The position numbers and the translations under genes are program-made. This document shows positions 2,354 through 61,800 of a stretch of 64,000 nt of DNA, piece after piece. The stretch is taken from contig JADNYJ010000025.1 of the NCBI GenBank assembly GCA_015501075.1, positions 62,001 to 126,000 on the forward strand. Reading direction: 5' to 3'. Position 1 is the stretch's first letter. Each line of letters starts with the position of its first letter. The notes under the pieces were generated by a model, which was not told the DNA's origin, searched no databases, and worked only from the letters and a program-made list of their open reading frames with translations. Source of the DNA: Gymnopilus junonius (Eukaryota; Basidiomycota; Agaricomycetes; Agaricales; Galerinaceae).

Positions 2354-2720
2354 CTTGATGAACGAGTTTTGGGGGTGCCTCAGTGCTTGGCCGCGTTTAC
2401 AGAAAGATAGGGAGCGATGGGAAAGGCGTTTGGGTTCCAAACTTTTTGTTCAGCGTCCTATTTGAATCTTCAGCCTAAGCGCACTTCAAGACACATAATC
2501 GACAGCGATCGAGAAAAAGAACCAAAAGGATGTGCCAATTTGACCATGTCGTGTCATCAGCCAACGAGTTCAGTGCAGCTGGACACATGGAAGGCCTGTG
2601 GGGCGGAGTCACAAGGGAGGACGCTTGTAGATGTAGAAGAAAATTGGCGTGGAATTATTCGGATATATTGAGAAAATCGACGCTCTTTAGGAGGAGGAAG
2701 AAGGAGAGGGTATAACATAC

Positions 2721-2905
2721 CTTTAGCGAACGGACCGACGATTTTCCGTGCGGAGGCGACTTCAGTATTTTTGGCGGGCCAGTGCTGTGTATAATTGGGT
2801 CAAGAATAGACCGGAAGAGTCATTCCGTTTTTTTTGTCCAGGATGGATGCGTACTCTTGTGAACCGGCGGCGTATTTGACGCAGATGGGGGTCCCAAGAG
2901 GAAGC
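2721..2905 (-). pseudogene. Coding remnant of an unrecognised minus-strand gene
   Basis: On the minus strand one frame reads LPLGTPICVKYAAGSQEY...ILDKKNGMTLPVYS, then a single in-frame TGA, then PNYTQHWPAKNTEVASARKIVGPFAK. It ends at a good donor (AAAG|GTATGT at 2720-2719). The composition looks like real protein and the stop could be a CGA-to-TGA change. I do not recognise the family. No convincing flanking exons were found between 2440 and 2720, and the upstream part would run into the TIR element that begins at 3027. This may be a host gene broken by that insertion, but the insertion link is inference. Confidence 0.3.
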
Positions 2906-3017
2906 CAATTGCACTGATAGACGGATCTTGAGCGAATGGAGTAAATTCAGAGCAGGAATAAAATACATGGGGCCTTTGTCAGGACATCCACGTCACATGT
3001 AGAGCAGGCCTGTAAAC

Positions 3018-3026
3018 GGAGTTAAG
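3018..3026. repeat. Left target-site duplication of the TIR element
   Basis: GGAGTTAAG lies immediately before the left terminal repeat and recurs in the same orientation at 9847-9855 directly at the right end. The first two bases are shared with the terminal repeat on the right side, so the true duplication may be 7-9 bp. Confidence 0.75.
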
Positions 3027-3156
3027 CCAGGCTCCTAAAACCAGCCTCTAGTATCGCTCGCAAGAGCTTCATCTGAGAGCGGATGCATGTGTTTCATCAG
3101 AGAGCAAACACGGTCAAATATTTTGATGTACAAACAAAGCTAAGGGCTCAAGCTCG
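3027..3156 (+). repeat. Left 130-bp terminal inverted repeat
   Basis: It matches the reverse complement of 9719-9848 at all positions except two, both of which are CpG on this arm and TpG or CpA on the other. It contains the subterminal motif CCAGCCTCTAGTATCGC, which recurs in related form in the inner inverted repeat near 9100 and 9700. Confidence 0.9.
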
Positions 3157-3575
3157 GGTTGACCGCCATAGTCCTGGGTATGTTATCTGCCCGGCAATGT
3201 CCGAGACACGGTTTGCTCGCCATTGTCGTCGACCTCTTGGACGCAAATGATGATTTTTGGCTACGAGAACTTACAGGACTATGTACGACTATATGTTAAT
3301 AAAATCTGTCTATTTAGATTTTTTTTTTGAGGTCTTGACGAGGCATAAACCCTCGAAATGTTATCTGCCACAGCCAATGGCAGATAACATGGCAGATAAC
3401 ATTGGCACATGCATTACCTGCCCTCAGGCAGCCCTCGTACTGCTTGGGCGAGGACGCGACGCGTTCTCATTCTTTTTTTCCCTATTTTACCACCTTTCAT
3501 ACTCCTAGGCTGCTTTCAAAACTCGCTTTTCGATTCCTTTCTCACTGTTCCATCCCCTTCCCGTGCTAAAACCCT

Positions 3576-6500
3576 ATGGATGGGAGCACGTCTAAATGTG
3601 GTGACATGTCCACGTCTTCTCCGGTGTCGATGAATCCTGGGATTCCTACATGCGAGAACAATGAATCACATGCCAGATTGGACTCAGGTTGGGTTCAACG
3701 TGACGGTGACGCGATTCATGCTGCTGCTTTACCTGACAACAATGAATCTGTGAATGGTACGTATTCGGGATTCATTTCTTCTCTTACGCGACTTATCGCG
3801 TAACCCTCACAGATGGCGGCTTCAATGCGGATGACGAGTACGGCGGGGACGAAGATTTTACAGCAGAGATGCTGTGGCAAATGCTGGAACTCGAAAAGGG
3901 CATGGTTGGCCCAAGTACTGGTATGTAGCTCATTTGATATACTTGAATTCTGATGGTCTGATGAAGTACATCTAGATTCAAGAACCCCGGCTAGCGCTGC
4001 CATATCCTCTAGCCCCCCCCACGATGTAGTGGAAGTCATTGCAGCCGGAAACTCAGAATCGCAACCGGCGCCGTCACCCCTTCCACAAACCTTGCAACAG
4101 CTGCGCGAAGCTGCTGAACGTACCCAAGTCTGTAAGTATACCATTTTATTGGGTTCGTATATCTATCTAACACGTCAACAGGTCCTTTCTTCACATGACG
4201 CGACACCTTCGAACTTGAAGACGGCAATGAGGAGGACTCGGACGTTGAGTCTGAGAATGAAGAAGATATCCCAAATACGAGAGGCGAGGGCGATGAGAAG
4301 GAAAATGGCAACCCAAAAGGTGCGTAGAGTATCTCACAAGTGTGTTCTGCCTATCTAACTGGGATATTGTAGCCCCTTGGTTCAAAAAGCTGAAGTACAT
4401 GCCTGACTGGCTGTACACGTACTTCAGTGACATCGTCAAACCCCTTATCAACAAGAGGGACAAGCGACAGCTCATCAAGCCTCCCCCCTTTTCCGACAAT
4501 GGCCCATGTTCACCTCCAACCTTTTGGATCAACCCGCCCAAACCTGCCTTCCTGCTCTCGCACCGGCATTTCGAGCCGACATTATTCTATCAACCTCGGA
4601 TCTGCCTTTGGCTCCCTCATTTCTTTATCGACAAATTATATTGCCCAAAATGTCGAACCACCGTTCTCGAAAAGAATGGCCCCCTCTGCCCTCGCCGTAT
4701 TATCGATCTGCAAGATTCCTTTTATATAATCTCATGGAGTTACTATTGTCGGAAAGGTTGTAGATCCCACTTCGAAGGATGGGGCCGAGCGATCCTAAAC
4801 TCTCTCCCACCATTTCTTCAGCTTTCTTTCCCAGCAATCCTTTCACATTGAGGTGGCCTTTCGCATGAGGTAATGACTCAACTTCGCGTTAGCAATCAGC
4901 ATAAGATGGGGCCAAGTGGTGTTCGCTCGCTTCTTACTGAGATGCATACCCGCCGATTCAACAAACTTCAGCTTCAATACATCGAGGCTTTATTCAAGGT
5001 AGTTCGTGAACGCGACATTGCATGTACTAGTAGTGGTGGTAGGCAGAGCACCCTCGATTCGTACTTTCAGCATAAAATTTCAAACTTCAGTTTGTTTGGT
5101 GATCCCGATGGTTATGCGGGGTTTGTTCCAAGTGAACACTATCTCGCGGAGATGATGAACAAGGCGATTGAAAGGGACGAACATGATGCAAACCAGCATA
5201 CAGCATGTCTTGCACCTGACCAAATTTCGATTGATGATTCTCATAAGGTATGCTTTTCTTTTGTTTGATGCATAATCTAGGATGCTCAGTATTATTCCTA
5301 GGTCAATAAGCACATTGCTAAGATCGATGGGATTCCAATATTTGGGGCATTATGGACATGTATGGACTCACGGTACATTCGTGCCCAAGCCTTGACATTG
5401 ACGAAGGCTCATGATGAATGGTCGGGTCCTCTTTCTGGAATAGCAAAGTCGATGAAGCTCTATGGTCATCCAAACCCTCGTGTTGCATTTTCTGATGATC
5501 CAATCAAGGTTCAGTCATTATTTCAAAACTTTACTGACACTTCAATACAATATTCTGACATTATATTATTTGAATAGGACAAGCCATTATTGAAGGCTGC
5601 CTTTCCGTCCCTCTTTGAAAACTTGGTTCCTATGTCTGCTGCTTATGGGCTTGAGGCTCTCGAGCTCCCGTCTTCTGTCCTTTGATTCTTGATTCTCTGA
5701 GCTTGGTTGAGGGTGTTCTCTCATCTCTTCTTGCTCCACTGGATAATGATGAAGAGTCTCATTTATGCATTAGCTTGGATGCTGAATGGAATATTTCTCG
5801 CTGTACTGGAGTGTCTATTATCCAAATTGCTCCTCATTCACAGCCAAATGATATCTATCTTATCCCTGTATGTCGAATCTAATATTAAGCTACTATAATC
5901 TTTACTAACTTGTCTTTCGAGGTTCATAAATTTGGGGATAAGCTTCCTACTTCACTTATACGCCTTTTGGTATCTCCACGTATTTTCAAGATAGGGTCTT
6001 CAATCAAGGCTGATCTTACTCGACTCAAGAAGCAGTTTTCTCAGCTTCAACAGCAGGCATCATTCAATGTTATTGATCTTAAGGATTACTCTATCCGACG
6101 TGGAATTATTCCTCGAAAGGGCTCTGCTTCCCTTGATATTCTCCTCGAGAAAACAGTTGGGAAGTATTTGAGCAAAGACGAGTATATACGAAAGTGTGAT
6201 GACTGGGAAACAAGCCCACTGCACCCAGATCTTGTTCAATATGCATCTCTCGATGTTCATGCCTCACGCCTTATTTTTGAAAAGGCGACTCAAATTGCTC
6301 CTCTAGTTTGTGTTGACCATTCTACACCTCCTGGAACCCGCATTGTACTTCTTGTTCAGGAAGGAGGAGAGCCTGCAGCATATGGTAAAATTTGTGAAAG
6401 TCAACCTTCATCATTTGCACATATCCATGTGAATGTTCCTACCAAAAGTTGACTCTTAATCGAGATTGATACTGTCTGTATCCCGTCTGCTGCTGCCACT

Positions 6501-8967
6501 CTTCATTTGCTTCCTGATCAATCATCCGGAAAGACTAAATCTGGTGCATTGACTCTTGGACAACTTCAAGCCTCATCTCCAGTTCTGACATTCTGTGTTG
6601 TTGCACCTCTTTCCCACTTGAACTTTGATTATCGTGACCAGGTATGGCATTGTCAATTAATTTTTCAATATGAAAAATAATTTATTTTGTGATAGACTGA
6701 ACTCGATTCCATGATTACTTTACCAAGAATGCCAGATAATAATCCTTCAACATCATCTCTTGAAACTGTTCCACCATCTATTCCAGCTGTAATTGACTGG
6801 GATGATAGCCCTGACCAATTACCTCTCCAAGGCATAGAAGAACCAGATGAAGAAGAGGAGTCCAATAACATCAAAATGCTTGAAGCACATTCTCTGGCCT
6901 GTTCGAAACAAAAAGGTATTTTCAATTGTCTATTAGTTGGTCTATCAATAACTTTTTTCCAGGAAAGAAACGTCAGCTTGAGGACAATGATCTACCAGTG
7001 GACTCAAACATTTTGCCAGCTATTAGCTACCTACATGAAATGGTTGAATCTCTTCCTAATGCTGAGGTTGAATATACCTTAGTCAAAAAGGATGTCTTCC
7101 ATGCATTTCACATGCTTCCGATACCTATGAACCATGGATCTCATCCTGGATTTCTTCGGACCCTTCGTGATCACATCTTGTGCTGGGATCCTGTTAGCCA
7201 ATCTAAGGTGGATACTGTATGCTGGCAGCATTTTAATCTGACCTTTGACCAAATGCTTGCTCGAAACCCACGTTTTATTGCTGAACGAACTCCTCGCCAC
7301 ATCCCTTCTCCCAATATTCTTGTTCCAGCTATCAAACATGTTTATAATATGTTTCAGGATGCTGTTGATGCCAAGACTGGGGCCCGTCTCTTTACTGAGC
7401 CACTCCAAGCTAAAGCAAATGCTATCTTGGATCTTGCTTGTCAAGGTTATCTCTCTGATGTCAAGGGTGTTTCTATGTATGAAAAAGCGGGGATTGATAA
7501 ATATGGGCTGCAGAAGTGGAAATGCTTGCGTGGAACTAACAGTGTGGAAGGTGGGCCACATGGCAATATCTATCGAAAGTTTGGAGCACTCCATGGTTAG
7601 TATTTGGTTCTCAATGATTGTGAATCCATTATTCTTATATCTTCATTTCAGCAGGACCACGTTTAACTACAAATTGCTTAACTGATCACCACACATGGTA
7701 TAACCTCCAGGTAATTTGTCCATTGTATGTCATACACCTGTATCTCAAGCCTTTCAATGTAGGCCTTTGCAAAACATCTATATGGGGTAGACTGGGATTA
7801 CCATCATGATCTAGGCTTATAAACCGGACAGCCTTCTTCTGAATTATCTTTCTGACATAACTGGCAGTGCTGCATCATATGCAGAATGGATAAATGGTGA
7901 TTTATATGAAAGAACAATAGAGCAGTTTGGAATTTGCACATTTCCAGGTGCGTTCATATTTATTATTTCACAATACAAATTGACAACAAATTAAAATTGT
8001 TTTTATAGAAACATTGCGAACACGATTTTGTATGGAGCCTTATTCAGAGGCTGCCAAATCTGCCTTCAAGCTCAATGCTAATGATGATTGGCTTCGAAAG
8101 CGCCAAGGCCTTGCACTTCCAGCACTTCCTCCAACAACCCAAGAAGCCCGACAGTGCTTCTTTACCAAAGTACGTGAATTCTCTGAGCTTGCTATTTCCA
8201 ATGGCAAGAAACATGTCAACTTCGAGGCTTTTACACAAGAGTGGAATCGAACAGCTGATGGAAAAGAGCGATTTTATGTGACTGTCGAAGTTCTTTGTGC
8301 CTACGCAAAAGGCTGGGAGAAGATCAGCAATATTCGTGCATCTCAAGAGTTGATATCAAATCAAATGCAGAGCCTCAACTCTTCAGCTCAGGTGTTCCTT
8401 GCACCTTCAAAACCTTTCCCAGAGTATCTCACATCAGCTCCCTTGCATCTCCATCCTTTGGAGGGTGTAGTTGAACTATCTGAGGACCTGCCAGTGCCAA
8501 ACTCTCTTTCTACTGACCTTTCCACCTCACAAGTACATTATCCCCTGCCAAGCTCAACAATACAGATACATGAAGAAGTCCCAACTCTGGAGCCCACTGA
8601 GATGCAACAAGACTCTTCACGAGAGCCATCAGTGTATGTTTGGCGATTTTCTCCTTGTTTTTTTCGAGATGCTGATTGTGGCAATAGCAACTCATCGGCA
8701 AATAATTATGTTGGGATTGCAGAAATGAGCCGCGAAAATTCAACGTCTGGACAGGTTCCAGCCACCAAGTGACGGCGAGTCGTTCCTGAACATCTGCGCA
8801 AGCGCACAACTAGGTCATGCCACCATTGCTGAGGTATAGAATGCCCGGGAGGCAATGACATTTTGAAATGTCCTGCAGTGTGTGTGGTTCCATGCAAAAA
8901 ATGTTTGAAGACAGAGAACTGCAGAGGAGTGGACAATGGGAGACAATGTACATCATCGAATAAGTAG
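3576..8967 (+). pseudogene. DUF6729-like zinc domain + DEDD 3'-5' exonuclease, eroded
   Basis: One long multi-exon gene inside the TIR element. In order: an acidic N-terminal region (exons from 3576, 3814, 3976, 4191); a zinc-binding domain at about 4375-5260 (LYCPKCRTT, then YYCRKGCRS, then MGPSGVRSLLTEMHTRRF) that matches my memory of Pfam DUF6729; and an exonuclease at 5690-6310 with the DEDD motifs LDAEWN, IGSSIKADLTRL and YASLDVHAS. Next comes a conserved-looking block of unknown function (DVFHAFHMLPIP, then CLRGTNSVEGGPH) at 6963-7595 and its continuation to 7940. The tail (from 8010) ends in a Cys/His-rich segment (CHHC, CPGG, CKKC) at 8808-8950. The family is known as DUF6729 plus 3'-5' exonuclease in fungi. 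Lesions: in-frame TGA at 4196, 4849, 6450, 8770 and 8830, each readable as a mutated CGA, a one-base shift near 5680, and breaks near 7810-7840. It is therefore probably not translated in full. Confidence 0.75.
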
Positions 8968-9091
8968 TGGATACAGTACTTAGTAACTTGATACTGTAAT
9001 GGATTACATAAATCGATGACAAATTCTCCCTTTTCCTCCCTTTTTCTCTCCTTTTCCCCTTTTGGATACCCAGGAGTATGGGGGGAAAACC

Positions 9092-9726
9092 CAAGCTCGC
9101 GATATAGAGGCTGGCATTTTATAGATTCACGTGATCTGCGTGGGCAATGTCAAGGCTGTTTTTACAGTGTGATGTGCAGGCGCGTCACCAGAACCATGCC
9201 CAATTTGGAACTGCTGAATTTCCCCCCTTGTCCACTACAATTAGGAGGTAAACCCCTTTCCTCATGTCAATTTAGCCATGCCACTTGTTCAAACAGTTAA
9301 AGATAAATACAATTGGCATAATTAGCAATTATGCCACTTGAATAAGTGAGAAACATGCAAGGTAACCTTCCCATGGTGTTATTGTAATGAGTGCAAGTGG
9401 ATGGGTTCACCTAATTGTATGCAAAATATGGCTCTCCTGCTCATTCATACTAGAATTATGGTAACCAGTAATGGTAGACACATTATTAAAGAAAACTCAC
9501 ACCTAATTTGCATAAATACAGGGGAAGGAACTTAATACTTGAAAGAATTATTGGATTAACAGCCCACAATGCCTCTCCCTTGTCGCTCTGCAGTTGATGA
9601 TGTTCTCCGTGCCTTCGAGCATGCGAGCATCAATATCGGCGGCCTCCTGCCATAAAAAAAACCTTGATGGTTGCCCATGCAGATCACGTGAATCTATAAA
9701 ATGCCAGCCTCTATATCGCGAGCTTG
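9092..9726. repeat. Inner inverted repeat unit (possible MITE-like unit)
   Basis: Arms 9092-9146 and 9672-9726 are inverted copies (CAAGCTCGCGATATAGAGG... with GATTCACGTGATCTGC). I see one difference, again at a CpG, and a looser match continues inward to about 9167 and 9652. The interior is AT-rich with short palindromes, for example GGCATAATT-AGC-AATTATGCC at 9315-9335, and has no gene. The arm motif resembles the subterminal part of the 130-bp terminal repeats. No flanking duplication was found, so it could be a related non-autonomous unit or a structural part of the larger element's 3' end. Confidence 0.6.
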
Positions 9727-9848
9727 AGCCCTTAGCTTTGTTTGTACATCAAAATATTTGACCATGTTTGCTCTCTGATGAAACACATGCATCTGCTCTC
9801 AGATGAAGCTCTTGCGAGCGATACTAGAGGCTGGTTTTAGGAGCCTGG
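9719..9848 (-). repeat. Right 130-bp terminal inverted repeat
   Basis: Reverse complement of 3027-3156. Its inner 8 bp (9719-9726, CGAGCTTG) are also the outer end of the right arm of a second, inner inverted repeat (9652-9726). Confidence 0.9.
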
Positions 9849-11894
9849 AGTTAAGCTCGATTTCAATGGCTTGAGGTGAATCTTCAATTCCCAAAAATTG
9901 ATTCATTAAAGATCTGGAGCTCCTACTGGTGGTGTTGGGAATTTAGCAACAACGGGTACACATATAACTTGACTTCCTCTCCTATATTTTCGTCTTCTCA
10001 TGGAAGACTTCTTGAGGATGGGGTGAAAAGAGGCTCTGCAGTGTTGCTGATATTGATGAAATAAGACAATGATGCCTGTTTGAGTAAGTAATCGAGAGAG
10101 ATGGTTTGAAGAAAGGATTACTGTAATACCACAGAAATACTTTGCAGAGTTGTGTGGTAACTAGACAGTTGTTAGATGGAATCTGGCTTAGTGAAGCCTC
10201 TCATTTCGTGGAGGTATGGGAGCCCGGAGTAGGGACAGGCCTGGACTGGCAGCAGATGGTTGGGACGTACACGTGATTTGATGAACGGCCTGGATCCCGG
10301 TCCACGATGGACATGCCCTTCACCACCACCACCACCACCACCACCACCACCACACTACCACCAGACACTATTATCTCTGGCGAGGCTAATTTGTGGTGAG
10401 ATTCCATACCAGCCATACCAGCCTTACAACTATCAGCAAAACAATCCTCAATAACATCACAAAAACCTGTGTTTCACATTGTCTCATATCCCATCCCATC
10501 GTCTTCCTCCGTTATGATGAACCCCTTCAGCGATATGACAGCACCTCACCCTGCACATCAATTATTCATGCCTCCAGACCCTCGAGACCGTGGTGCCTGT
10601 GCTCAGTTCAGACTTTGTCGGAAAGCGTGAAAGGCTGCATGTTCTACTCATCTGCGCTCCAGCGGACAAAGCTTTCAGCAACTTTGCACTTTGTTGGACT
10701 TTGTCAACTCGCAGTTGCAGTACTATCGGGAGGTCCTTCTTGAACAAGCACGGCTTCATCAGGAGCTTGCTTCGTCGTATTCAGCCACAATGAAGGAAAT
10801 GACTAACCACTTAATTTATATCTCAAGCTTATCATCCCATGCCTTTTCAATCCCATCTTCATCTTCAACTTCAACTTGCTCACAAAATACAGCCACGCTG
10901 GACACAAACATGCCGAGTTTTTGTTTTTATGACCCACTGTTATCTCGCCCACCGAAGAATGACGTCACGTAACAGGGATGGGTTTTTTAATTTTCTCGGC
11001 TTTCTTTTCTTTTCTTTTCCGTTCCCCTCTCTTTCATCCGCAACCTCTTGCATCCCCATAGTATTGTGCCACCGGTGGTTTGTTTTCACAATTGGGGAGT
11101 GCTAGTCCGGCCAACGTCCCCCTTGCAGTGCTATGATTCGCTTTTATTATTATTATACTTATAGTTTACGAAGAACTGGCGAGGTAGTTCATAGCTACCT
11201 GAGTTACTATGTAACGTAGTCAGTCACAAATAATTCCAATTCAATGATCTGACCTCACTATCAACTCACTATCTTCCACAACTGCGATGCTACATAGAAA
11301 TATGCGGATGCCTTGAAGCGTAAGTACGATTGAGCCTCCTTGTTGTTGATCGGTTTTCAGGTGTCGATTTCAACTGATACAGGGCTTGCAACCCACTTTT
11401 TACAGTGCATGACATGCACTTACTACACCACCTGGAGTCCTGGACCTGGACCCAATGCGAACCACAAACCATACTTCAGATTATACTGAAAGCTGATTTA
11501 TTATCTGAACATCGCGGCTAAGGGATGCTCCATCACGGCCTTCATCTATGCCAAGTTCCTGCAGGAGCTTGCACAGCCTTGTCTATTTTGGTCGAATCAA
11601 CTACACGAGGCCTTGGTAAGGCCTCGGGTCTTTCGAGTAGAATCTACGTACAGGAAAACTTACCACCATTTTGTACATACTGAAATCATCGTATGAGGTA
11701 TTCATATCGATCTGTTCAGGCAAGACGAGGCATGCGTTAGGGCGTGTGAAATATACTGAAAAAAAATGAGGTCATGCGGAAATGATGAATTGACAGTCGT
11801 CTTGGAGCCAGAAAAACTTAACCTGATCCTTCACGTACCTAATTCATACCCCCTATACCCCTTCCTTCCTTCGACCTGTACTCGTACCACCATC
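9849..11894. other. Gene-poor interval with a (CAC)n microsatellite
   Basis: Between the TIR element and the PalI/SUR7 gene there is no convincing intact gene. A (CAC)n tract lies at 10321-10353. A long frame at 10514-10972, listed separately, looks like decayed coding sequence. The stretch 11100-11890 shows no features except promoter-like sequence just before 11895. Confidence 0.5.
10514..10972 (+). pseudogene. Possible decayed coding sequence, unknown family
   Basis: One frame runs from ATG 10514 (MMNPFSDMTAPHPAHQLFMP...) to a stop at 10972 with a single internal TGA at 10628, which could be a mutated CGA. The second half (LLDFVNSQLQYYREVLLEQARLHQEL) is helical and heptad-like. The upstream sequence is rich in Q, P and S. 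I do not recognise a family. No intron removes the stop cleanly. It could be a relic of a regulator-like gene or chance. Confidence 0.25.
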
Positions 11895-43550: not shown

Positions 43551-44987
43551 ATGTCCGAAATACAAGAAAAAACCTCTCCTCCTCTTTCTAATCGATCGAG
43601 TACTTCCGCTGACACCCTCCTTGAAGACTTTGCTGCCCTTCGTAAGGCTATCTTTCTTGATGGACTCATTACCATCGCCAGTCGAATTCGGGGAGTTGGG
43701 TGCACTGTGGATGTCGAAAATCCTTTTTATGGCAGCTTTAATCTCATTTACGCAGTCACCTTCTTGGATGGCGTCAAATGGGCCGCTCGAATCCCTCTAC
43801 ACGGTGTGAAGGAGTCATTCCACGATAGCGATGCCAAGGCGCTGAAATCACAGGCTCTGACGATGCGATTTATAAAGCAGAACACAAGCATCCCTGTTCC
43901 AGATGTGATCCATTTCGACACGACGTTTGACAATGCGCTTGGTGCGCCTTTTCTGCTCATTACATGGTTGGAAGGGATACCTATTTATTCGGCCTGGCGC
44001 AAAACTTCAAGCTTCGACGACCATACAATCCTGGATGAGCGAAGAGAGAAGATGTTGAGGTCTGTAGGGAAGGTTATGGCTCAACTTCGCTTTTTGTCTG
44101 CTCCAAAGCTTGGGGAATTGGACTTCGAGCCTACCAATGACACAAACGAAAAGCTTCGCGTGAAGGACTTCCAATATATGCATTCCCTTCATCTGGAAGA
44201 ACACTCCGAAGACGTCATGTTCAGTGATATCGGGCCCTTCGACCACACGAGGGATTTTCTATCCGCTCTAGAAAAAGACTCTATTCCCGATCGGCCCCTC
44301 GACGACTTCGCGCGAGGTCAACGCGAGTTACTCAAGATCATGATTGACTCCATACCCGTCGTGGAACACGAAAAATTCGTCCTAGTTCATCCGGACTTTG
44401 ATTCGCAGAATTTTTTGGTCAATGAAGAAGGTACGGTGACAGGCGTTTTGGATTGGGACGGTGTATCGACCTACCCTCGCTATATCGGCTACTCACGTTA
44501 CCCTGGATGGCTCACTAGAGACTGGGACCCGCTCATATATAACTACGGTGAGAACAGAATCCCCGACGGCAAGGAGGAGGATTCTCCGGAGACGTTGAGG
44601 AAGCTAAGAAAGATGTATTTCTCAATCATGCAGGAAGAATTAGGCGAGGATGAGGCCAAGTGGACGATCAACTCGCATTTATTCGAAGCAATCGAAATAG
44701 CCGCGAGGAACCCGATGAACTCTTCTTCAATTATCACCCTTCTGGTGCGGAGGTGTATCAAAGAACCGCTTTCTGTTAACACCGACTCTGACTCTGACTC
44801 TGACTCTGACTCTGACTCTGAGGAAGCCTCTTCAAGCGACGATGAAGATGATGTTCGGCACATGCCTTTTTGGGTCTACGAGTTGTCTGTAGCTCTGGGA
44901 AAGGGCGACCTTGCGGAAGAAAAGATCAATATACTGAAAGAGAAATTCAGAGAGGCGTTGGCGTGTACAACGCACATAATCGAGTAA
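43551..44987 (+). CDS. APH-family phosphotransferase-fold protein
   Basis: Single exon, 478 aa. The aminoglycoside-phosphotransferase (APH) kinase fold is visible: a nucleotide-lobe with ENPFYGSFNLIYAVTF and KWAARIPLH (Lys/Arg region), the helix SQALTMRFIKQNTSIPVPDVI, the catalytic motif LVHPDFDSQNFLV (His-x-Asp...Asn) and the metal-binding VTGVLDWDG. Such genes are numerous in basidiomycetes and their substrates are mostly unknown; antibiotic resistance should not be assumed. A low-complexity (Ser-Asp)n run lies near residue 410, encoded by a (GACTCT)n repeat at about 44783-44821, and may vary in length between strains. Confidence 0.85.
   Translation: MSEIQEKTSPPLSNRSSTSADTLLEDFAALRKAIFLDGLITIASRIRGVGCTVDVENPFYGSFNLIYAVTFLDGVKWAARIPLHGVKESFHDSDAKALKSQALTMRFIKQNTSIPVPDVIHFDTTFDNALGAPFLLITWLEGIPIYSAWRKTSSFDDHTILDERREKMLRSVGKVMAQLRFLSAPKLGELDFEPTNDTNEKLRVKDFQYMHSLHLEEHSEDVMFSDIGPFDHTRDFLSALEKDSIPDRPLDDFARGQRELLKIMIDSIPVVEHEKFVLVHPDFDSQNFLVNEEGTVTGVLDWDGVSTYPRYIGYSRYPGWLTRDWDPLIYNYGENRIPDGKEEDSPETLRKLRKMYFSIMQEELGEDEAKWTINSHLFEAIEIAARNPMNSSSIITLLVRRCIKEPLSVNTDSDSDSDSDSDSEEASSSDDEDDVRHMPFWVYELSVALGKGDLAEEKINILKEKFREALACTTHIIE
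44783..44821 (+). repeat. (GACTCT)n in-frame microsatellite
   Basis: About six copies of the hexamer GACTCT encode a Ser-Asp run inside the APH-like protein. Six-base units keep the frame when copy number changes. Confidence 0.85.
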
Positions 44988-48284: not shown

Positions 48285-51200
48285 TTATTTCTTCCCAACA
48301 GAATCAACCACCTCGATCCACCTCTTCGGGATCCCCTTGCCCATAAGGTACTCCACGACCGCAGGCGCCTGTTTCCCTTGCACGAGGACTTCCATCTGAG
48401 GTTGACTTTGGCCTGAAGGTGATTTACCTTGGAGGGGGGATACTAGAATGGGATGAGAATAGTGTTAAGTAAATGATTGGGCGAAACGATCAATCCGTAG
48501 ACAAGTATAAAAAAATCGACAAGGTAGAAATAAAACAGAAGGAGCAAGGCGACAAATCGTCCTATCCTATCCTATCCGCACCATGCGGGACAAGAAGGAA
48601 AACATTTCAAAGATGAAAAAAAATGAAATGCGAAAAAGAAAATAATAGGATAGGATAGAATTTACTCGTAGCATCAAAAAAAATGAAGATAAAGACAAAG
48701 GAAAAGAGAACGACTAGGAAGTAACCAGCTCGCCTGTTTCATACTTGCTAGTCGGATAAAAAGTGATGAAAAGGACGAGAAAAAAAAAGGCCTAATGGAG
48801 ATCAACCGCAAACGCCGCAACGACAACGACAACATTGAAAAAACAAGGACAAATTATGGGATAAAAAAATGCGGGAGCAAAATGAATAAAGTTAATCAAG
48901 TCAATAAAGCCAAGTCCTCCAGACCCCAAACGTTAAATAAAGAAGGATGAGTAAAAGGTGAGAGAAGGAGGGATAACGCGTAGTAGAAAAAACTTTAAAA
49001 AAGGGGAAAACAAGGGGAAAAAAGGAGGGAAAAAACGAAAAACGAAAAACGAACCAGAAAAAAAAAGAAGAAAGAACAACTCACCGCTCGTCGCACCCGC
49101 ACACACCCTCCTCAGCGCCTCCGCCATCTCGTCCGCGTCGACGACTTGGAAGGGCTCAAAGCCCGTAATGAGCGTGCACGCTTTGCGGCCTTGACGCATT
49201 TTTATGTGGATCTGGATAGGGCGGGGGAGCCTTTCCTGGATTGAAGGGAAAAATAAGAATTTAGAATGGGAATCGGGATCGGAATTTAAAGAATTTAAAG
49301 AAAGGAATAAATAGGACTGAAGGAAATTTTGGGATTTGAGGAAGGGAGGGAGGGAGGAAGGGAGAAGAGGGAAAAAGAAACAAGAAAAGAAGGAAAACAA
49401 AGAGAACGTACTTGACGACCCCGTCCCGCCCTCAACTCTCACCTCATACCACGCCTGCATCTTACCCAACACCGCCTTCATCAGCTCGTCGCGGCGCAAG
49501 AACCTGTCCATGTCTTCTCCGTCAGTGTCTTTAGCTTTGTCTTTGTCTTTAGCTTTAGCTCTGTCTTTGTCTTTAGCTCTGTCTTTGTGTTTATCCTTTT
49601 CTCCAGATCCGTCTCGTTCATTTTCTCTAGATTTTCCTTTCGATTTCGCCGTCTTTATCTTGGCAGACCGAAGACAAGAATAAAGCAGCTCGTCCAGGTT
49701 GATATACGCCTGCTCGTGCGGGTTGACGAGGTTGTGTGAGATGATGTAGGCGTTCAGCAGCGAGCGCAGTTCCAGGGCGGTGTATAGGTCAGATTTACTA
49801 GAAAGAGAAGAAAGAGTCAGCATCATATGATGCAACTAGAGTAGAAGAAGAAGAAAAATGAAAGAAATGAAGAAAGGTAAAGAAAGCGAGAGAAGTAAAG
49901 CATGTTGCTTCACAAACTTTGAATGAAAGAAAAATAAAATCAGAATAAATCGAACCCACCTCCCTCCAATCCCCTCCGCAAGATCCACACTCCCCTGATT
50001 CGCCTTCCACAGCTCCCTCACCTCCACCTCTCCTCCTTTCCCCTTCCCCTCCCTACCCCATCCTCCTTCTCCCTCTCCCTCTCCTTCGCCGCCCTCCGCG
50101 CCCTCTTAACCTCCACCTCGCCTATTGTCACGAACAAAGTATGTCCAGCAACGGAGGGATGGGAGGCATTAACAGAAGTGATCACCACCTCGGCTTTATT
50201 CTGCGGCGCGGGTTTGAGCGTGAGGAGGGACAGCTTTTCGCAGGATTTGAGGAAGGCGGTGAGGGATTTGTGGGTGGATGATTTGATGCTTATTTCTGGT
50301 CCTACGACGGGTGGGGTGCCATCGGTACTTTCTGGTGTTATTGTTAGTGTTGGTGATGATGCCCCCTGTAAAGAAGAGGAAGAGGATGAGGAAGGGCGTA
50401 AGGCGACCCAAGGGAAAGCGGGCCGGGAGGGGAGGATGTAGGTCGAGTAGAACTGCGTGGCAGGGATGGGGAATGCCGAGGGCGGGAGGGGCCCCAGGGT
50501 GCTGGAGATGGCTTGGAGGAGGGTGAGTGTGAGCAGGTGAGATATTTCTGTTGGGGTGTAGGTGTATGTCGGAGCGTTTACGCTTGGAGCGGCTGATCCT
50601 GCTGGTGCTGCTGCTGCTGAGGAAGGTTCAGCTTCGGATGGAGGTGGAGGGTTGTCCGATCCACCGATCTCGCGGGGTGTTGTTGAAGGAGGCAGAGACT
50701 CTTCTGCCCGATGCTGCTCTTCGTCTCCATCCTCTTCTCCATCCTCCTCCTCCTCTTCATCTTCATCGCTCTCCTCCATATCAGCACCCGCATCTTGCGA
50801 ACTCGAACTCTGCAACACCGTATCCTCGGGCATATCCCGCTTGGAGCCCATATCCCACAGGTGGTCTTTCCACGTATGCGCCACGAGCACCGCTTTGCCC
50901 TTCTTCTCCTCCTTGGAATTCGACGCCGCCGACCGGAGCCGGTCAGACGGGAGTGCGAGCCAGCCTACAGCCACAGGAGGTGATAAGGCCGGAGGGGACT
51001 GGGTATCCTTCCGGGAGTACTGCCGGATACAAATGAGATTGCGGTCCGGGAGGGAGGGCGGGCAGTGGATGACTGGCTTGGGGAGGTGAGGAAGCTTATA
51101 GTTACAGTGGGTGGATGGGGCACTGACCACCGGGTATCATCAGATCCGCACCGCCTATGAGAATAGGCACGACTACCGAGGGTGTGGAGAGGAACGGCAG

Positions 51201-58800: not shown

Positions 58801-61800
58801 AGGCGATGGAGGAAGGCTGCGAATACCTACACTTTGCACCAGGGATGACACAGGCCGCGAACAGGAACTCAACATGAATGAAGACAAGGCTCATATACTA
58901 GCGAAGACTTTCTTCCCCCCACCGCCTGCGGAAATCGACATCCCACCCGATTATGACTATCCGGAACCCTTGCCAGACCCCGCCCCTATAACCAGCAAGC
59001 AAATCGAGGCACACATACATCAACTTTCACCCTTCAAGGCTTGCGGGCCTGACGAAATACCAAACGTGGTTCTACAACAGACAACAGACTTGATAATTCC
59101 ATGATTAAAGTGTATCTACCGAGCGACACTCGACCTCAACTACATCTTCAGTGGATGGAAAGACTCAACAATGGCTGTCCTGAGAAAAGTGGGGAAACCG
59201 AATTATGAAAACCCAAAGGCGTATCGTCCAATAGCACTTCTAAACACATTAGGAAAAGTACTGACTGCAATTGTTGCAGAAGACATGTCTCGACTAATAG
59301 AAAAGCACGAACTAATCCCAGCAACACACTTCAGTGGATGACCAGGACGAACAACCACTGATGCATTGCTATATCTAACACACAGGATAAAAACTGCCTG
59401 GCAAGACAAGAAGGTCATGAGCATCCTTTTCATGGATGTCGAAGGTGCCTTCCCGAATGCAGTAAAAGAATGCCTCCTCCACAACATGAAGAAATGACGC
59501 ATACCCAAGAAATACATTGACTTCACCAACCAGCTCCTTATGGGGCATCGAACCAAACTAAAATTTGATGACTTCACCTCTGCATGGATAGACTTAACCA
59601 ATGGCATAGGCCAGGGTGACCCATTTTCCATGGTTTCTTATCTATTATACAATGCTGATCTACTGGAAATTGCAGAGGACAAAGAAGCTGAAGATGCACT
59701 AGGGTATGTAGATGATGTCGCAGCAATGGCGATAGGAGATGACTTCAAGCAAACAACAGAACGGCTCTGGACCATGATGATGAAAATCGGAGGTGGCGAA
59801 CAGTGGAGCAAGGAGCACAACTCAAAGTTTGAAATCAACAAGTTCACCATTATGCACTGTATGCAGCAAACGCAGCAGGACCCACATAACAGATGACGGT
59901 GCATGCCACTTGATCACCCACAATTTGTGCTTCAAGGACAGGTAATAAAAGAGGTCAACAGCTACACATACTTAGGAGTTGAGATCGATAACCAACTCCG
60001 CTGGCATGCCCAAGCCAAGAAGGGAATGGCAAAAGCGAAGCAGTGGAACAGCTTATATGGAAGACTAACCAGACCCTCAACAGGACTTAACTGCAGATTC
60101 ATGCGACAGCTATACATTGCAGTCGCAATTCCCAAGATGACCTATGCACTGGAAGTATGGTACACTCCGCCAATCCAGCCAGCTGGCAGCAGATGGAAGA
60201 CCGGCTCAGTGGGAGTATTAAAACACATGCAAACTCTGCAAAGACAGGCCACAATTTCGATAGCAGGCGGACTCTGGATGACGCCAATGGACCTCCTTGA
60301 CCCTCACGTGGGGCTCTACCCCATGGAACTCCTACTTAGAAAAATCTGCCACAGGGCAGCAGTAAGACTTTGCACCATTCCAGATAACCACCCACTCCGC
60401 AGATTTGTACTCGACGTAAAGAAAACTGCAGCCACAATGCACCTCAGCCCAATAGACTACATCATCACGAACTACAAACTCGACCCAGAATTATTTGAAC
60501 CCATAGGCCCAGACATGTCCAACCCTGCTGAAATGTGCACATACAAGATCACTATAGCAAAAACATGGGATGAATCGATGGAAAAGGAAAGAAATGACAA
60601 TGCTGACTATAAGGTATTCACAGATGGCTCCGGATACGACAACAATGTGGGAGCAGCAGCGATTATCTACAAAAAGAATGATGAAGCACCATTCAAATCA
60701 CTGAAGTATCATCTCGGGGATCTTACAGAACACACGACATATGAAGCGGAAGGAATCGGCGGCATTTTGGCAACTCAGCTACTCAAAGGAATAGAGCCAA
60801 ACATAGGACAAAACCTGGTGACAATTTACACAGATAGTCAAGCTTTACTGATGTCTCTCACTTCCAGGAGAGCAGCACCCGGTCAATACATCAAGATCTG
60901 GCTAAACAAAAGCCTCGAGGAACTGTGCCAGTTTCAAATCTGCCTACAATGGATCTCAGGCCACACGGATGTACCAGGAAATGAAAAAGTCAACAAAGAA
61001 GCCAAGAAAGCAGCTCAGGGTAAAACCAGCAGGCGACAATGGCTTCCATCAAAAATGTGAAACGGAAGGCTCCCAGTCAGTGCAACAGCAGAGAAAAGGA
61101 AATACAGCACAGAACTAATGAACATGTGGAACCAAGCATGGAGGGCATCAAGTCATAAGGAGAGGATGGAGAAAGTGGACTCAGATTTCCCTTACAAGAA
61201 ATTCCGAGTCATTCGAGATAAGTTTACGAGAGCACAGGCCAGCCTGCTGACACAAATCCGAACAGGGCACATCCCATTAAACGCATACCTCCACAAAATA
61301 ACCAAAAGTGACTCCCCACGGTGTTTGCAATGTGCCGAACTCGTCAATGGACCAACCCCTCCTGAAACAGTCAAGCATTTCTTATTTGAATGTCCAGCTT
61401 ATTTCCAAGAATGTGCCGACATGACTCGTGCGCTACGAGAAGACAGCAGAGACCTAAAGGAAATCCTCAAGACAGCTGACAAAACAAGACACTTACTACA
61501 CTTTATAGCAAAAACGAAGCGACTCAAGAAGACTCACAGTGATATAACACCAAAAGACATGAATTAACGATGTCCAGTACACTTTACAGATGCCCAATGC
61601 ACCCAAGCATCGTACCCCAAACAAATCTCACCTGACATATGATCCCTGTACGCTAACCGAACACGAAATACGAAACTGACGAGGAAAAGAACTCATTAAA
61701 TGATTTACTCATGCTCAAATCGTACCAGTTGCCAGGCAACCAGGTACGCAAAAGAAAGATATCAAGACAGCAAGTATGACAACTAGTACAGAAGTTGCAG

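Follow-up and report, generated by a model that had tools for sequence, protein, structure and literature searches.

Organization of the locus

The stretch of DNA analysed here (the window; 64,000 nucleotides of Gymnopilus junonius, assembly GCA_015501075.1, contig JADNYJ010000025.1, positions 62,001 to 126,000) carries a pair of inverted arms of 130 nt at 3027-3156 and 9719-9848, which are 98% complementary. A preliminary description of the window had proposed such arms together with a flanking duplication of 7-9 bp, and both were recovered, the duplication being the 9-bp GAGTTAAGC at 3019-3027 and 9848-9856. Between the arms lies a gene of 14 predicted exons on the forward strand (3576-8967; exon model built by hand, last intron automatic). 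The whole had been described as one complete element with terminal inverted repeats (TIRs). We conclude with high confidence that it comprises an outer miniature inverted-repeat transposable element (MITE) of about 880 bp and, nested within it, an inner Dada-like cut-and-paste transposon of 5.9 kb whose gene encodes its own transposase. The two jumping elements are unrelated to each other, and the outer is the smaller one.

The outer element

With its ends placed from other copies, the outer MITE begins after the left 9-bp target site duplication (TSD) GAGTTAAGC (3019-3027) with a left TIR, CAGGCTCCTAAAACC... (3028-3156, forward strand), that the inner insertion separates from the remaining MITE sequence. 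The remainder, of about 756 bp (9092-9847, forward strand), includes the other long arm and is followed by the right TSD GAGTTAAGC (9848-9856); the arm is partly repeated in inverted orientation within it (9092-9147 and 9671-9726). Of 88 genomic candidates for the 130-bp end, 40 were scored, giving at least 40 matches.

Both ends were read for 12 other MITE copies. Eight (L002, L003, L005, L007 and L041-L044) measure 878-888 bp, L008 measures 804 bp, and L004, L045 and L046 measure 1.2-2.2 kb; none is long enough to hold the gene. The copies of about 880 bp give an uninterrupted match to the window arm joined to window 9092-9848. With the end set at CAGGCTCC, an exact 9-bp duplication was found in 12 of the 13 copies, the window included; L041 has none. 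The outer element shares long arms and 9-bp TSDs with MULE-type MITEs and, because of these two traits, its mover is probably a MULE-type transposase. There are 16 matches to PF10551 in the genome; no autonomous MULE partner with the MITE's ends was identified, the ends of the 16 loci not having been examined.

The inner element

The inner element (3157-9091, forward strand; 5,935 bp) is a degenerate copy. It is flanked by the 8-bp TSD CAAGCTCG, made from MITE sequence on the left (3149-3156) and repeated on the right (9092-9099), and its TIRs are GGTTGACCGCCATAGTCCTGGGTAT (3157-3181, forward strand) and ATACCCAGGAGTATGGGGGGAAAACC (9066-9091, reverse strand). Across copies the TIRs are about 26 bp long and read GGTTGACCGCC(C)ATAGTCCTGGGTAT with an imperfect inverse. 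The MITE would have inserted first and the Dada-like element afterwards into its left arm, thereby duplicating the 8 bp CAAGCTCG of MITE sequence. In uninterrupted MITE arms CAAGCTCG occurs once: this empty junction was matched 73 times with at most three mismatches, at two arms per copy, the right arm of the window included.

The exon of the conserved block at 6963-7595 has 17 matches in the genome, one being the window; the other 16 are covered by 15 fetched stretches. Five other copies (C781, C634, C5, C11 and C13) are at least 95% identical to the window element, and their alignments cover about 3152-9098 of the window and end there. None of the five has the 130-bp arm (within the 15 stretches it is matched solely by a fragment of a MITE in L033), and only one of six gene copies at this identity lies between such arms, an outcome that the preliminary description had itself named as refuting its reading. 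The contigs C781 and C13 (L026 and L030) have common flanks, as do C5 and C11 (L028 and L029), and alignments at 98.5-99% identity run on through these flanks, so the same two sites are each seen twice. These pairs are probably haplotigs, the assembly holding both haplotypes, and the six copies therefore represent four insertions.

All of these insertions have an 8-bp TSD: CAAGCTCG in the window, GACGCTCT in C13 (with one mismatch in C781), AAAGTAGG/AGAGTAGG in C634 (one mismatch) and CCTTCGAA in C5 and C11. An internally deleted copy (C402) has TTGCGAGG and an interrupted copy (C891) has TTCTTCTC. A diverged full copy, L035 (C723:44501-54500, 2397-8589), has GGTT-type TIRs of its own (18 of 24 positions matching) and the exact 8-bp TSD ACCAGAAC; none of 100 shuffles exceeded 16 matches, and the end structure is therefore not confined to one family. 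L039 has an exact TSD and a TIR with 16 of 24 matches, which is merely suggestive because two of 100 shuffles were equally good. In the diverged copies L032, L033, L034, L036, L037 and L040 no convincing pair of TSD and TIR was found. About 205 bp of the inner left end stand in tandem duplicate at about 8404-8810 of L027 (C634).

The nesting, ends, TSDs and empty sites were directly observed, and they leave virtually no room for a single transposon with 130-bp ends. Such a unit would account for 6.8 kb being bounded by arms and a 9-bp duplication; the arms are, however, found on copies of about 880 bp with 9-bp TSDs, and gene copies elsewhere have other ends, 8-bp TSDs and no arms. The other arm copies are too short for the gene and the gene occurs elsewhere without the arms, from which it follows that two nested elements had been mistaken for one unit. 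We therefore reject the single 6.8-kb unit and retain the nested pair.

Short derivatives

Probes for the two ends of the inner element matched 29 and 28 places in the genome, and flanks were read for 18 end pairs. Fourteen of these span 0.63-0.85 kb and so could not hold the gene. An exact 8-bp TSD flanks 12 of the 18, C756 included, and two more (C235 and C333) have one mismatch. C112 and C637 have common flanks, so the 18 pairs occupy 17 distinct sites. The short derivatives would need a transposase supplied in trans. At C114:2244-7995 and C333:8597-14274, inner-type ends are separated by 5.7-5.8 kb, a distance that matches a full element; neither pair has a match to the block exon, and the TSD is exact in C114 and carries one mismatch in C333.

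Target sites

The target sequences of the inner element differ among insertions. Since an insertion would split an RNA gene, flanks were rejoined before tRNAs were sought, and ARAGORN found none in 27 rejoined empty sites. Rfam gave no match in 11 gene loci, the window and nine MITE loci (eight with the window's site uninterrupted), a coverage that excludes the rejoined sites of the other insertions. Over 21 distinct sites, a set that leaves out L026 and C564 as repeat sites and four pairs without TSD, a symmetric preference AnnGCT-N8-AGCnnT was seen (position -2 was G 26 times and position -5 was A 25 times, of 42 symmetrised positions each); none of 5000 within-site letter shuffles was as strong.

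An inner derivative of about 821 bp (L046, C564:3101-5400, 194-1014) is inserted at exactly the 8 bp of the MITE arm that the window element uses, and points the other way. C402 was considered as a further MITE insertion and rejected, because the 14-mer that it has in common with the MITE is short and does not lie at the junction. Whether the transposase retains a Dada-like target recognition, relaxed to a loose palindrome, with one hot site lying in the MITE arm, we regard as evenly balanced. The preference unmatched by 5000 shuffles and the two insertions at the same MITE position speak for it; on the other side, the motif is weak and was picked after inspecting all positions, a MITE match across the junction occurs for the window and C564 only among the joined sites, and two MITE insertions may be a coincidence.

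The transposase gene and its product

The gene had been described as joining a DUF6729-like zinc domain, a DEDD exonuclease, a conserved block and a Cys/His tail. The matches to PF20499 (DUF6729, E 1.8e-12) and PF01612 (3'-5' exonuclease, E 9.9e-09) agree with that description, and the block (6963-7595) is likewise present, as is a tail rich in Cys. Above the cut-offs, Pfam named DUF6729 and DNA_pol_A_exo1 only, and no hAT, MULE, CACTA or KDZ transposase domain. In the predicted exon model, the reading frame of the C634 copy runs without interruption for 1,559 residues. In the window copy it is broken by premature TGA codons, including that at 4849-4851, and it shifts near 5670.

Three homologue searches, each scoring the approximately 8000 candidates with most words in common, gave 58, 40 and 53 matches in overlapping sets. 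The named homologues, all of which we take to be agaricomycete, are usually labelled hypothetical or 3'-5' exonuclease. Conservation among 60 aligned sequences was directly observed. All sequences with a letter at the position have the first Asp (54/54; IDDSHK, 5233-5235), the second Asp (59/59; FSDDP, 5494-5496) and the Glu of RGTNSVEGG (55/55; codon 7547). The last belongs to the segment RGTNSVEGGPH (7532-7564, bounds read from the sequence). The DxxH motif (DVFH, 7091-7102), on the predicted last core strand, has Asp in 57 of 59 (codon 7091) and His in 58 of 58 (codon 7100). First and second Asp are 69-70 residues apart. The inserted DEDDy 3'-5' exonuclease (5778-6254) has its D, E, D, Y and D codons starting at 5778, 5784, 6012, 6240 and 6252, conserved in 53/57, 55/57, 54/60, 58/59 and 54/59 sequences. 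The DUF6729 core (4642-4761) holds four zinc-binding cysteines (codons 4642, 4651, 4747 and 4759; 38/46, 46/46, 53/53 and 51/53), and DUF6729 is, in this family, the zinc-finger part of a transposase. The C-terminal tail with the stop (8770-8967) contains TGA codons in the window copy; in C634 it is Cys-rich without CCHC spacing. One strict C-terminal Cys pattern was found in 4 of 52 proteins of at least 1300 residues, the others either lacking it or being cut short. PF20499 has 14 matches in this genome and none in 14 control genomes.

The catalytic domain is predicted to fold like the transposase of ISCth4, which we take to be a bacterial member of the IS256 family. PHROGs gave nothing for two proteins, and a viral structure library gave eight matches at E ≤ 0.001, of which the named ones are 3'-5' exonucleases or an RNase H-like protein. 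The conserved D-D-E, the DxxH motif and the ISCth4-like predicted core bear out the earlier suggestion that the gene itself may encode a transposase. The block at 6963-7595 had been put forward as the core; it does hold the DxxH motif and the catalytic Glu. As the entire catalytic core it was rejected, because the first two Asp (5233 and 5494) lie upstream, before the exonuclease.

It had also been considered that the gene is cargo of another element; for the inner ends this would mean that they are worked by a transposase encoded elsewhere. The lack of a Pfam transposase name for the gene would suit cargo, yet the D-D-E residues and the predicted core count against it, as do the near-full copies, which align to the window element along its length, insertions in some aside; a second gene was not noticed in the list of open reading frames (ORFs) of the window element. 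We hold this explanation to be very improbable and treat the gene as the transposase of the inner element.

In six aligned copies (window 3157-9091 and L026-L030, with the two haplotig pairs), transitions account for 260 of the 282 columns with two letters, and 202 of these 260 fall at CpG, compared with 16% of C lying in CpG. This bias would reflect cytosine methylation and deamination or a process like repeat-induced point mutation, a decay that fits the TGA codons.

Proposed mechanism

Read from the N-terminus, the protein would begin with the DUF6729 zinc domain, followed by an RNase H-like DDE core that is interrupted after the second Asp, ahead of the DxxH strand, by the DEDDy exonuclease; a helical insertion comes next, and then the catalytic Glu and the Cys-rich tail. 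The DDE core would cut the element ends and join them to the target with an 8-bp stagger, and the zinc domains may bind the GGTT TIRs. The exonuclease may trim 3' ends that become exposed as the element moves, either at the donor gap or on the end of the element. Such a role, as proposed by Kojima and Jurka, is the weakest step of the mechanism and is offered as a possibility that we judge somewhat less probable than not. Because their ends are known, the short derivatives lend themselves readily to an excision test of this role.

Other genes in the window

ORFs at 48936-51130 (reverse strand) have SUI1 and eIF2D winged-helix domains, with SWIB below the cut-off, and are probably an eIF2D gene. 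An APH-family phosphotransferase ORF lies at 43551-44984; a further ORF, at 59903-61057, contains an RNase H domain and perhaps derives from a retroelement.

Comparison with known systems

The Dada superfamily was named by Kojima and Jurka in 2013 (PMC3706591; what is said of this and the other cited papers refers to the portions of their text available to us). The layout D-D-[DEDDy exonuclease]-DxxH-E was published there for Dada elements of Laccaria bicolor and Ectocarpus, so the gene does not encode a new kind of transposase, as had been thought possible. Those Dada with clearly definable termini all lie in small RNA genes; published Dada have 6-7-bp TSDs and multicopy small-RNA-gene targets, the U6 and U1 families have subterminal repeats in place of TIRs, and Dada-U6_DR has 68 residues between the first and second D (PMC3706591). 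The inner element agrees with Dada in the D-D-E residues, the D-D spacing (69-70 against about 68), the DxxH motif and the CCCC finger, and with the L. bicolor and Ectocarpus Dada also in the position of the exonuclease. It is Dada-like, a kinship placed by the description of published Dada and not by alignment; we do not call it plainly a Dada member, because several DNA traits differ and the published sequences could not be aligned.

A number of observations weigh against our reading of the two elements. The TSD is 8 bp long and not 6-7 bp, RNA-gene targets were not found, and the absence of TIRs that marks U6 and U1 Dada is not shared. A profile from which the exonuclease was deleted gave 53 matches among the approximately 8000 candidates, with no named protein outside basidiomycetes and no animal Dada. 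ISCth4 was absent from the 50 matches listed for the model of P0038, from the window's own subfamily, because exonuclease matches filled them. Four of the 18 end pairs (C637, C235, C114 and C333) are about 1.5-5.8 kb long with interiors whose content was not read, and four (C190, C201, C112 and C637) have no TSD. A MULE as mover of the MITE is based on TSD length, arm length and genomic MULE genes only.

The exonuclease-bearing mushroom elements might alternatively be a separate superfamily with an IS256-like core that acquired its exonuclease independently. The three differing traits (8-bp TSDs, TIRs and dispersed targets) favour this, as does the failure of the profile search to reach animal Dada directly. 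Fungal cut-and-paste transposons were reportedly surveyed by Muszewska and colleagues in 2017. It also speaks for a separate superfamily that a Dada profile taken from Muszewska et al. 2017 gave no multiple well-supported matches in Marasmius oreades (PMC8290104). In another mushroom, Agaricus bisporus, 15 Dada families appear in a table (PMC7473861). Against a separate origin, the order of parts in the Dada of L. bicolor and Ectocarpus is identical, their exonuclease occupies the equivalent position and has all four acidic residues (PMC3706591), and both the D-D spacing and the CCCC cysteines agree. We consider a separate superfamily unlikely and keep to a Dada-like element.

Tentatively, and with less than even confidence, we propose that the exonuclease elements of Agaricomycetes are a lineage of full cut-and-paste transposons separate from the Dada that target RNA genes, with TIRs, 8-bp TSDs, short derivatives and a loose palindromic target in place of strict RNA-gene targeting, the exonuclease setting the processing of ends or of the donor gap. 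If true, this would illustrate how a target-specific transposase turns into a general one or, conversely, how a general one becomes target-specific. For Dada-like transposons with an exonuclease, clean ends, TSDs, empty sites and target preferences are now given; the founding paper defined this branch by protein architecture and not by ends (PMC3706591). In the open literature, Repbase entries being outside the scope, no published account of TIRs or 8-bp TSDs in exonuclease-bearing Dada was found. Mushroom PF20499 proteins that carry the database label hypothetical or 3'-5' exonuclease are most probably transposases, for which annotation as host exonucleases is misleading.

Compared with the ISCth4 transposase (PDB 6xgx, 6xg8), identity is 9-11% among the matches listed, and its chains of 355-402 residues leave no room for an exonuclease. 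The WRN exonuclease is part of a helicase protein, and L. bicolor belongs to the same fungal class as G. junonius. Unlike the WRN exonuclease domain (PDB 2e6l, 2fbx), the exonuclease here is embedded in a transposase core. The Dada-U6, U1 and tRNA elements of fish, Daphnia and Perkinsus are alike in the DDE core with DxxH and the zinc fingers (PMC3706591, PMC8869645); they differ in their 6-7-bp TSDs and RNA-gene targets, and the exonuclease is stated for L. bicolor and Ectocarpus only. The L. bicolor and Ectocarpus Dada likewise have an intron-containing gene, an N-terminal CCCC zinc finger, D-D-E with DxxH, and a DEDDy exonuclease with all four acidic residues between the second D and DxxH (PMC3706591). 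The listed L. bicolor copies are 5.7 and 7.8 kb long, against 5,935 bp for the inner element, and no target is stated for them (PMC3706591), whereas TIRs, 8-bp TSDs and dispersed targets are defined here.
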